DNA from: Thermococcus indicus
GTDB lineage: Archaea; Methanobacteriota_B; Thermococci; Thermococcales; Thermococcaceae
Assembly (NCBI RefSeq): GCF_006274605.1
Contig: NZ_CP040846.1
Location: 1,681,041-1,745,040 of the forward strand
Direction: 5' to 3'
Length of the DNA: 64,000 nucleotides
The notes below the pieces were generated by a model. That model was not told the DNA's origin, did no database searches, and saw only the letters and a list, made by a program, of their open reading frames with translations. The position numbers and the translations under genes are program-made. Below, piece after piece: positions 57,071-60,681 of this stretch (the stretch's first letter is position 1; each line of letters begins with the position of its first letter).

Positions 57071-57121
57071 CCTTTTAAGAACTCCCCCACATTTCTTAGG
57101 TGTTAGTCACTGAGGGTGATA
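57071..57121 (+). promoter_or_regulatory. pfkC promoter with TrmBL1/Tgr operator (TGM-like)
   Basis: TATA-like CCTTTTAAGAA at 57071-57081 is followed by AGTCAC-TGAGG-GTGATA at 57105-57121. This matches the Thermococcales glycolytic motif TATCAC-N5-GTGATA at 10 of 12 positions. The site lies downstream of TATA and overlaps the ribosome binding site, the position from which TrmBL1 represses glycolytic genes in the absence of maltodextrin-type sugars. Confidence 0.72.
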
Positions 57122-57124
57122 CAT

Positions 57125-58504
57125 ATGGGGCTCCTGGACGAGGCAAGGAAGCTTTCGGTATACACGGCCTACAACACGAACGTCGATGCGATAACCTTTC
57201 TGAAAGGGGAGGTAGTGCAGAGGCTCATAGACGAGTTTGGGGCCGAAGCGGTCAGGAAACGGATGGACGACTATCCGAGAGAGATAAACGAGCCGCTGGA
57301 CTTCGTTGCCAGGCTGGTACACGCCCTCAAGACTGGCAAGCCGATGGCAGTGCCCCTCGTCAACGAGGAGCTCCACACATGGTTCGATTCCCACTTCAAA
57401 TACGACGTTGAGAGGATGGGCGGTCAGGCAGGAATCATAGCCAACCTCCTGGCGAATCTGGACTTCAGGCGGGTGATGGTTTACACCCCCCACCTCGCGA
57501 GGAAGCAGGCCGAGATGTTCGTGGACAGGCCCAACTTGGCGTATCCTGTCGTCGAAGACAGCAGGTTGGCCTTCAAACACCCGCGCGAGGCTTACCGCGA
57601 GGGCGATCCGATAAAGGTGAACCGCATTTTTGAATTCCGCGCCGGGACGACCTTCAGGCTCGGAGACGAGACGATACAGGTCCCCTTCTCTGGCAGGTTC
57701 ATAGTCTCCGCCCGCTTCGAGAGCATAAGGATCTACACCGACCCCGAGCTGAAGCGGTTCCTGCCGGAGATAGGTCTTCAGGTTGATGGGGCTATTCTGT
57801 CGGGCTACCAGGGGATAAAGCTCCGCTATTCCGACGGAAAGGATGCGAACCACTACCTGAGGGAGGCTAAAAAGGACATACTCCTGCTCAAGCGCGAGAA
57901 GGACGTTAAGGTTCACCTCGAGTTCGCCTCGATACAGAACCGCGAGCTGAGGAAGAAGGTCATCTACAATCTCTTCCCCCTCGTTGACAGCGTCGGCATG
58001 GACGAGGCGGAGATAGCCCACGTCCTCAACGCCCTCGGCTACTCCAAGCTCTCAGACAGGATCTTTACCTACAACCGCATCGAGGACACGGTTCTCGGCG
58101 GAAAAATCCTGATAGATGAGATGAACCTCGAGGTGCTCCAGATACACACGATTTACTACATCATGTACATCACCCACTCGGACAACCCGCTGAGCGAGGA
58201 GGAGCTGAGGAGCAGCCTCGAGCTCGCCACGACCCTGGCCGCTGCCCGCGCGTCCCTTGGGGAAATCCGCTCGCCCGAGGACTTCAGAGTAGGTTTAAGC
58301 GTACCGTACAACGAGCGCGGGGAGTACGTCAAACTGCGCTTCGAGGAGGCGAAAAGGCGCCTGAGAACCAGGGAGTACAAGGTCGTCATAATCCCGACGA
58401 GGCTCGTCAGGAACCCTGTCTCAACCGTCGGTTTGGGCGACACCATCTCCGCTGGAGCCTTCACGAGCTACCTCGCGATGCTGAGGGGGAAGGGGGAGCT
58501 CTGA
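57125..58504 (+). CDS. pfkC: ADP-dependent phosphofructokinase
   Basis: A 459-residue ribokinase-fold kinase using ADP, which phosphorylates fructose 6-phosphate in the modified Embden-Meyerhof pathway of Thermococcales. It resembles P. furiosus ADP-PFK more than the ADP-glucokinases: VYTAYNTNVDAIT, PLDFVARLVHALKTGKPM, ARFESIRIYTD and the catalytic VSTVGLGDTISAGAF. GGGTGAT precedes ATG 57125; GTG at 57116 is in frame but has no site. The promoter carries the glycolytic operator. Confidence 0.93.
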   Translation: MGLLDEARKLSVYTAYNTNVDAITFLKGEVVQRLIDEFGAEAVRKRMDDYPREINEPLDFVARLVHALKTGKPMAVPLVNEELHTWFDSHFKYDVERMGGQAGIIANLLANLDFRRVMVYTPHLARKQAEMFVDRPNLAYPVVEDSRLAFKHPREAYREGDPIKVNRIFEFRAGTTFRLGDETIQVPFSGRFIVSARFESIRIYTDPELKRFLPEIGLQVDGAILSGYQGIKLRYSDGKDANHYLREAKKDILLLKREKDVKVHLEFASIQNRELRKKVIYNLFPLVDSVGMDEAEIAHVLNALGYSKLSDRIFTYNRIEDTVLGGKILIDEMNLEVLQIHTIYYIMYITHSDNPLSEEELRSSLELATTLAAARASLGEIRSPEDFRVGLSVPYNERGEYVKLRFEEAKRRLRTREYKVVIIPTRLVRNPVSTVGLGDTISAGAFTSYLAMLRGKGEL

Positions 58505-58518
58505 ACCTTCAAATTTTT

Positions 58519-58536
58519 GGTACGGTGTGGCGTACC
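58519..58536. promoter_or_regulatory. Upstream operator GGTAC-N8-GTACC
   Basis: GGTACGGTGTGGCGTACC, an inverted repeat 35 bp (start to start) from an equivalent downstream copy. It lies just upstream of the TATA box (GCTTTTAAAG, 58541-58550) of the ATPase gene. Confidence 0.65.
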
Positions 58537-58540
58537 AAAT

Positions 58541-58550
58541 GCTTTTAAAG
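58541..58550 (+). promoter_or_regulatory. TATA box of the DUF4143 ATPase gene
   Basis: GCTTTTAAAG lies about 26 bases before ATG 58572, so the transcript should be leaderless or nearly so. It is bracketed by the two operators. Confidence 0.6.
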
Positions 58551-58553
58551 ATT

Positions 58554-58571
58554 GGTACTGTATACTGTACC
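58554..58571. promoter_or_regulatory. Downstream operator GGTAC-N8-GTACC
   Basis: GGTACTGTATACTGTACC, palindromic at 16 of 18 positions, ends immediately before the ATG. A protein bound here would cover the transcription start, so repression is the likely effect. The regulator is unknown. Confidence 0.68.
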
Positions 58572-59888
58572 ATGAATCCCGAAGACATCAAACGCTATAT
58601 CCGCCTCTTTCACGAGAGGGATTTGCCACGGGTTGTGGGGAGGGAGTTAGAGCTTTCTCTGAACAGGGGAAAGGCGACGGTGATAATCGGTCCAAGGCGC
58701 TCCGGGAAGACGTATCTCCTTTATTCGATGGTTAGGGAGGAAAGGGAACGCTACGTTTACCTGAACTTTGAGAACCCGCTCCTGTTCGGGATAACTGGAC
58801 GAGACTTTCCGGGAATTGTTGATGCCTACTTTGACCTCTATCCGGAGAACGTTGGGGGCAAGGTTTTCTTCCTTCTCGATGAAATTCAGAACGTCCCCGA
58901 CTGGGAAATCGGCGTAAGGTATCTGCTTGACGAGGGTTTCATGGTGGCGGTTACAGGCTCGTCCTCGCGGCTGCTCTCGAGGGAGGTCGCGACCCAGCTG
59001 AGAGGACGCGGAATTTCATACACTCTCCTCCCGCTCTCGTTTCGAGAGTTCATTCGATTCAAGGGTGTGGACTTTAAAAAGCGCGACCTCTACGGCAGAA
59101 AAGTGCACGTGATAAAAAATCTTTTGGATGAGTACCTAAAATACGGCGCCTTTCCAGAGGTGGCCCTGCTCAGCGATAAGGTCAGAATACTTGAAGAGTA
59201 CCTTTCGGTGATGATAACGAAGGACGTCGTAGAGAGACACGGGATTCGGAACGTGGCCCTTATTGAGGCCCTTGTCAAGCTTCTGCTTTCGAACTACGCG
59301 AAGTACACATCGTACAGCTCAATCCACCGCTTCCTTAAGTCCGAGTTTGGAACGTCAAAAACGACGGTCCTCGAATACCTCAGAGCACTTGAAGACTCAT
59401 TCTTCGTCTTCTTCCTTCCGAAGTTTGCCCGCTCCGAAAAAGAGTCCCTCCGAGCCCCCAAGAAGGTTTACCTCGTTGATACCGGCCTGGCCCTTTTCTC
59501 AAGGAAAGACCCCGCAAGGGATATTGAAAACGCCGTGTTCCTTGAGCTTCTCAGAAGGAAGCACTATCTGAACCCGCTTCTCAACGTTCACTACTACGGA
59601 GGTTCCGGTGAGAAAGAAGTTGATTTCGTCGTCTCAGAGTCGGGGAGGGTTGTGGAACTGATTCAGGTGACCCTGAGCCTTAATGATGCACGGGAGCGGG
59701 AGCTGTCTGCCCTATCCATGGCCGGTAGAAATCTTGGCTGCGAGAACCTCACGGTTGTGACGCTTGGGGAAGAGGAAATCATTGAAAGGGACGGCCTCAG
59801 AATAAACGTCCTTCCCCTCTGGAAGTTCCTGCTGGGGCTCACTCCATCAGCCCCTCTATCAGCCTCGCCTTCTCCTGCGCCTTCCTGA
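58572..59888 (+). CDS. AAA-family ATPase with DUF4143 C-terminal domain
   Basis: A 438-residue ATPase of the archaeal AAA/DUF4143 family. Walker A is [16 protein letters not shown] near residue 38, Walker [11 protein letters not shown] near 97, sensor [10 protein letters not shown], and the C-terminal DUF4143 part ends with a PD-(D/E)XK-like fold ([20 protein letters not shown]). Biological role is unknown; many copies are linked with mobile or defence regions. ATG 58572 abuts the operator, indicating a leaderless message; an upstream in-frame ATG at 58527 lies inside the promoter. It overlaps convergent xerA by 50 bases. Confidence 0.87.
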
Positions 59889-60681
59889 GGTGCTCGACGG
59901 TGACTTTGGTGTAAATCTGCGTCGTTGAGAGGTTCGAGTGGCCGAGGAGCTCCTGAATGGCCCTTATATCGACGCCGTTTTCGAGCATGTGGGTCGCGAA
60001 GCTGTGGCGGAGCCTGTGGGGAGTAACTTCAACGCCGGCCCTGACGCCGTAGCGTTTCAGGAGGTACCATACTGTTTTGGTGGAGAGCTTATCCTTTTCT
60101 CTCCTCCTCTCCTCGACGAGGAGGTACTCGCTGTCGTCGGAGCGCGTTTCAAGGTATGCCCGTATCTCCCTCGCAAGGAACTCCGGAATTGGTATGACGC
60201 GGTCCTTGGCACCCTTGCCGCCACGAACCACGATGATGGAGCGCTCCAGGTCAACGTCGCGCCTCTTGAGGTTGCACAGCTCGCTGACGCGCAGACCGGC
60301 GCCGTAGAGGAGGAGGACTATGAGCCTATCGCGCTTTTTTGTCGGTGGAATAACCGAGAGGAGCCTCTTAACCTCATCGCGCGTCAGAGCCTTTGGAAGA
60401 CTCCTGGGAACCTTCGGGGGCTTGAGCTTCTCGGCCTCTTCATCGTAGCCCTCGAAGCGGAAGTAGGAGCGCAGGGCCTGGACGACCAAGTTTAAACTCC
60501 TGTTGGAGTAGCCTTCCTTTCTAAGCCTCGCGAGAAAACGGAGGGCGGAGCGGGCGTTTAGCTTTCCGCCCCACTCCAGATACCGGCGCACGTAGTAGGA
60601 GTACATCCTAATCGTGTTAGGGCTCTTCCCCTCGAGGTCGAGGTACGTCTCGTACTCCTCCATCAGCTCGGGGACTTCCAT
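59839..60681 (-). CDS. xerA: XerA tyrosine recombinase
   Basis: A 280-residue archaeal Xer protein, the chromosome dimer resolvase acting at dif. The N-terminal SAM-like core-binding domain spans 1-95; catalytic residues are Arg in [10 protein letters not shown], Lys in GGKGAKDR, His-x-x-Arg in [10 protein letters not shown], His in LLGHSNLST and Tyr in TQIYTKV. The start lies one base after the stop of the TOPRIM gene, so the two are co-transcribed. No dif-like site was found nearby. Confidence 0.95.

Follow-up and report, generated by a model that had tools for sequence, protein, structure and literature searches.

Restriction-modification C proteins and antitoxins read palindromes over their own promoters, with specificities that are private between paralogues, and the DNA reader in these systems is usually a small separate protein. 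Among the Thermococcales, the repressors TrmB, TrmBL1/Tgr, Phr and MDR1 bind a palindrome at the BRE/TATA box or the start site and so block recruitment of TBP/TFB or RNA polymerase, and autoregulation occurs (PMC4158304). The TGM of TrmBL1/Tgr is TATCAC-N5-GTGATA and the TrmB site is TACT-N3-AGTA (PMC4158304). PDC-S01, a single-gene defence candidate consisting of AAA_14 plus DUF4143, reportedly ranks fourth in abundance among defence candidates in prokaryotes, with 9,986 copies in archaea and an untested mechanism, experimental validation being reported as pending for most PDCs (PMC12988326). No description of PDC-S01 promoter architecture or self-regulation was found in the part of that article available to us, and the literature searched, from which subscription journals were largely absent, contained none of operators for DUF4143, COG1373, COG1672, DUF234 or PDC-S01 genes.

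The locus analysed here lies in a 64-kb window (the whole stretch of DNA studied, C1:1681041-1745040) of the 2.23-Mb genome of Thermococcus indicus, a member of the Thermococcales (genome G000). Two exact GGTAC-N8-GTACC sites precede a gene encoding a 438-residue AAA_14 + DUF4143 ATPase of the PADLOC PDC-S01 family (58572..59888, + strand). Operator 1, GGTACGGTGTGGCGTACC (58519-58536), is immediately 5′ of the BRE/TATA region AAATGCTTTTAAAG (58537..58550, + strand), the TATA core of which, CTTTTAAAG, is at 58542-58550. Operator 2, GGTACTGTATACTGTACC (58554-58571), covers the predicted start site and ends one base before the ATG at 58572. The original prediction of two inverted repeats that bracket the TATA box, the second touching the start codon, was exact in its coordinates. 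The pair occupies 53 bp (18 + 17 + 18 bp), and the spacing of 35 bp given for it is correct start to start or centre to centre but not as the gap, which is 17 bp. A leaderless start had also been proposed for the ATPase gene, and the TATA-to-ATG distance of approximately 27 bp fits this. Upstream is a gene for ADP-dependent phosphofructokinase/glucokinase (ADP-PFK; 57116..58504, + strand; Pfam PF04587, 5e-106), and a T-run behind its stop codon (58514..58518, + strand) may be a terminator between the two genes. On the other side a convergent gene (59839..60681, − strand), which judging by its translation may encode a Xer-type tyrosine recombinase, runs into the ATPase gene and overlaps its 3′ end.

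As anticipated, the sites resemble neither the TGM nor the TrmB site, and with GGTAC-N8-GTACC in place of TATCAC-N5-GTGATA, membership of the TrmBL1/Tgr regulon was rejected. An RNA hairpin was also rejected, because operator 1 is 5′ of the TATA box, outside any transcript that this promoter would produce. The arrangement differs from that of the described Thermococcales repressors in operator sequence, in having two sites at a fixed 33-35 bp and in having one target gene; moreover, every paralogue group has private operators, presumably read by an ATPase-nuclease-like protein.

The single motif turned out not to be rare when the proposed genome-wide search was made. G000 contains three exact GGTAC-N8-GTACC sites, and the reversed motif, used as a control, gave five. 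The third of the real sites is a brief tandem run within a coding frame, presumably that of ribosomal protein L1, and its 18-mer is also present in many relatives. Since the count is not enriched genome-wide, we dropped it as evidence. The twin arrangement, however, is confined to this locus: in a scan of 41 genomes for two sites separated by 10 to 24 bases, matches were obtained here only (seven genomes), while the reversed twin pattern gave 0 matches in the same 41. Orthologues at ≥70% identity were found in 11 genomes including G000 (protein identity to the window ATPase 70-92%), and the 18 + 17 + 18 bp layout is present without indel, with operator 2 touching the ATG, in 11/11. At most positions of the operator arms, 10 or more of the 11 carry the same base, and the alignment shows that AAAnnnTTntAA of the BRE/TATA region is also kept. 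Two of the orthologues (L009 and L010) have a third operator copy further upstream, about 34 bp away. The non-random part is therefore the pairing, position and conservation of the sites and not the motif itself. Far from being missing from orthologous promoters and frequent at random positions, as the original prediction had allowed it might, the pair is in every orthologue and the twin is nowhere else in the 41 genomes, which supports reading the sites as operators. The palindromic operator is over the promoter of the window ATPase gene and only there, and we conclude that these comparisons give good support to the view that the twin palindromes are conserved cis-operators dedicated to the adjacent ATPase gene.

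The ATPase matched Pfam AAA_14 (1.6e-33) and DUF4143 (3.7e-22), both over the curated cut-offs, and PADLOC PDC-S01 models at 3e-98, with six paralogue representatives matching at 2e-79 to 3e-110. In PDC-S01 as described (PMC12988326), an ATPase is joined to a PD-(D/E)XK-like domain, and the window protein and its paralogues may be built in the same way. A candidate operator reader is a predicted winged-helix domain at residues 228-302 (59253..59477, + strand). This segment is conserved, and an AlphaFold model built from four sequences, which is of low confidence (pLDDT 55.6), predicts helices at 228-240, 248-259 and 263-275 plus wing strands. Segments from members of the family gave weak Pfam matches to WhiA HTH, TrmB, FUR and ArsR, and Foldseek aligned the same low-confidence model with PerR at 3.5-3.8 Å over 93 columns, the matched part of which may be the winged helix. 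A sequence search of the PDB returned no useful relatives of the ATPase. The putative PD-(D/E)XK-like domain (residues 303-421; 59478..59834, + strand) is suggested by E349-V-D351-F ... E362-L-I-Q365, in which D351, E362 and Q365 are conserved (alignment A1), and by Foldseek matches to nuclease-fold proteins that are weak and made with the low-confidence model.

The evidence on operators and family is entirely comparative. Promoters of about 100 DUF4143 paralogues were fetched from the Thermococcales, with starts chosen automatically, and 105 were scored against 189 control genes from the same genus. Palindromes, judged against dinucleotide shuffles at p ≤ 0.05, were present in 64/105 DUF4143 promoters and 13/189 controls (Fisher 8e-24). 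In a direct-repeat scan over lags of 20 to 60 bp, in which the strongest lag was counted, 88/105 DUF4143 promoters peaked at 32-35 bp compared with 19/189 controls (Fisher 4e-38), and so did 14 of the 16 protein clusters formed by single linkage at 55% identity (binomial 1e-12). Elsewhere the scan was flat, with 14/104 behind the genes and 11/105 within them. Thermococcus paralogue L113 and the cluster L035/L036 are exceptions with no clear 32-35 bp peak. A blind check came from the controls themselves, where two of the most palindromic promoters proved to belong to AAA_14/ATPase_2 genes.

Each group of paralogues has its own palindromes around TATA, including GGTAAAGTTGAGTTTACC, TGTTTTATGTATAAAACA, TTGTGTATTAGTAATACACAA, TGTACTGTATGGAGTACA, TGTTCAGTATACTGAACA, TTTACCAGTATAATGGTAAA and TTTGTGGTTAGTAACCGCAAA as well as others; since the 32-35 bp lag is common to them, paralogues differ in operator sequence and agree in spacing. 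Most operator types bracket TATA, the F and K types being just upstream or overlapping it. There are up to about a dozen DUF4143 paralogues in a genome, with differing operators. Two operator types proved genome-wide to be dedicated to a single gene: the A-type twin of the window locus, as described above, and the H-type operator TTGTGTATTNGTAATACACA, for which a search of G000 allowing three mismatches gave just two positions, each of them before its own ATPase. Exact F-type sites number three in the 41 genomes, one at an intact ATPase promoter, one at a disrupted ATPase (L236) and one forming a fossil twin in G013, at the same locus but with the gene absent. The window locus is one case of this family-wide arrangement, in which the operator sequence differs per paralogue group. 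Nearly every relative of this candidate virus-defence ATPase has its own operator pair, spelled differently and about 34 bases apart, which suggests that a private DNA address lets each ATPase control its own gene.

Operators are also found where the ATPase is not. At the window locus, G001 has the intact twin and TATA box with the ATPase ORF cleanly missing, G025 has one operator site left, and G018, G008 and G029 have degenerate versions, while most other ATPase-less genomes have no operator trace. Three of these genomes, G001, G025 and G018, represent three lineages and form no single clade excluding ATPase-bearing genomes in the tree. We read this pattern as probable repeated loss of the ATPase gene followed by operator decay. 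The ORF is missing right behind operator 2 in L034/L207 (G001), L208 (G025) and L212 (G018), at a similar junction, GTACCGTTYTCTACTC or near it. Elsewhere, an F-type ATPase (L236; G004:C7:54500-58800) is split, residues 1-129 and residues 126-409 being encoded about 1.4 kb from each other, and three copies of the operator remain upstream; a truncated orthologue (L054; G015:C1:1374300-1376700) has only its C-terminal half after ADP-PFK, the promoter and operators being gone.

Loci that are empty but keep their operators might instead be excision products, with the palindromes serving as recombination sites of a mobile ATPase gene; inverted arms around an 8-bp spacer are what a tyrosine recombinase would use, and a recombinase-like gene is adjacent. 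Both copies, however, are on one side of the gene, 5′ of it and on either side of TATA. The 3′ end gave no sign of a repeat, neither the gene nor the DNA behind it contains another exact copy, and the sequence differs per paralogue group while the spacing is kept. We regard this explanation as extremely improbable. The narrower case of Xer/dif-like sites flanking a mobile segment is largely refuted by the 5′ position of both copies.

A more serious alternative is that one or more separate, unlinked repressors bind the operators and that the ATPase is merely the regulated gene. This would be in keeping with the known Thermococcales regulators, which bind palindromes at the same promoter positions, and with a window scan by partial correlation for covariation between operator and protein, in which the winged helix did not stand out. 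In favour of reading by the ATPase, operator distance tracked protein distance within clusters (r = 0.68), and half-site variants in the TGTNNA-type subgroup accompany, as judged by eye, altered residues where helix 3 begins. With private operators for every paralogue group, and two operator types unique to one gene genome-wide, the alternative would need one dedicated unlinked regulator per ATPase. Operators also decay where the ATPase is lost, and we consider this alternative unlikely. Given many paralogues per genome, each with a different operator, it is most economical to suppose that the ATPase reads its own sites.

To see how far the arrangement reaches, 35 DUF4143 loci were retrieved using the family model, most of them in other archaeal phyla but including eight from a MAG labelled Parachlamydiaceae and two from Thermococcales; the strongest lag was at 32-35 in 18/35. 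Several of these loci have direct non-palindromic repeats (L188, L192 and L196 among distant relatives) or three-copy arrays. Iteron-like tandem arrays of about three copies were noted 5′ of the archaeal ATPases L192, L196 and L197, with units of 33, 34 and 23 bp. In the Parachlamydiaceae-labelled MAG, where DUF4143 is matched 13 times, L116/L174 has a perfect 29-bp palindrome, GAATCCGTCTTTTCAGAAAAGACGGATTC, that stops a short way 5′ of the ATG. Among 12 plasmid homologues, the sole archaeal example peaked at lag 32, and the spacing was not general in the 11 bacterial ones. The 32-35 bp spacing thus recurs in other archaeal phyla, and in bacteria not clearly. Two of the plasmid homologues, from Ilyobacter and Monoglobus (L242 and L243), have a strong 40-bp direct-repeat lag upstream, and on a Treponema saccharophilum plasmid a DUF4143 ATPase gene (L248:678-1913) has type I restriction hsdR on one side and a gene for a DNA methyltransferase on the other. 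The DUF234/ATPase_2 ATPases of the same genomes, which match PADLOC PDC-S27, are similar in that upstream palindromes are enriched (9/28 compared with 13/189 controls, p = 4e-4) and differ in that the 32-35 bp spacing is lacking (1/28). Their palindromes are between TATA and ATG in a different layout (L137-L166), for example TTTACTTGCAAGTAAA and GTGATAATCACC..GGTGATTATCAC.

The three-copy upstream arrays with units of 33-34 bp (L192 and L196) would suit a role in which binding of the ATPase activates or autotunes the promoter, or in which the sites are mainly an iteron-like assembly platform for the ATPase; TrmBL1/Tgr, too, activate or repress according to site position (PMC4158304). At the window locus, however, operator 2 is on the predicted start site and touches the ATG, which is a repressing position, and several other operator types also bracket TATA. 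We therefore think activation or a platform improbable here.

Our preferred reading is that the twin palindromes are private operators of the adjacent AAA_14-winged helix-DUF4143 ATPase, which probably binds them itself as a repressor. Twin sites in 11/11 orthologues, their dedication to one gene, the family-wide spacing, the predicted winged helix and decay after gene loss all argue for this. Against self-binding repression are the intact twin in the gene-less G001 and the non-palindromic repeats of some distant relatives; in addition, about 34 bp corresponds to about 3.2 helical turns, so that two dimers would not be on exactly the same face of the DNA. We infer self-binding, repression, cooperativity and an inducing signal as follows. 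The ATPase would bind the twin sites through its winged helix as two contacting, cooperating dimers, the first next to the BRE/TATA box and the second over the start site and ATG. Once bound, they would exclude TBP/TFB and RNA polymerase, keeping the ATPase gene nearly silent until release, which might be triggered by nucleotide state, by engagement with foreign nucleic acid or by titration. Each paralogue group would read its own half-site, allowing paralogues to coexist without cross-regulation, and the 33-35 bp spacing would persist as a consequence of the protein architecture that all of them have in common. In contrast to C proteins and antitoxins, the reader would be the ATPase/effector polypeptide itself. 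In Thermus thermophilus, the DUF4143 gene TT_P0211 was up 6.6-fold with both plasmid and Argonaute present (PMC4406477), which is compatible with inducibility but does not prove it.

More tentatively, and with rather low confidence, archaeal PDC-S01 ATPases may be one-piece sensor-repressor-effectors, in which a private operator pair or array at 33-35 bp silences the ATPase's own gene and invading DNA releases it, coupling derepression to attack. A DNA address that can be read from sequence for each ATPase copy offers an immediate in vitro assay of which DNA is bound and what releases it. Such addresses also provide a route to annotating the regulation of thousands of PDC-S01 genes; fossil operators mark past gene losses, and the matched protein-operator pairs are a natural set for decoding winged-helix specificity.
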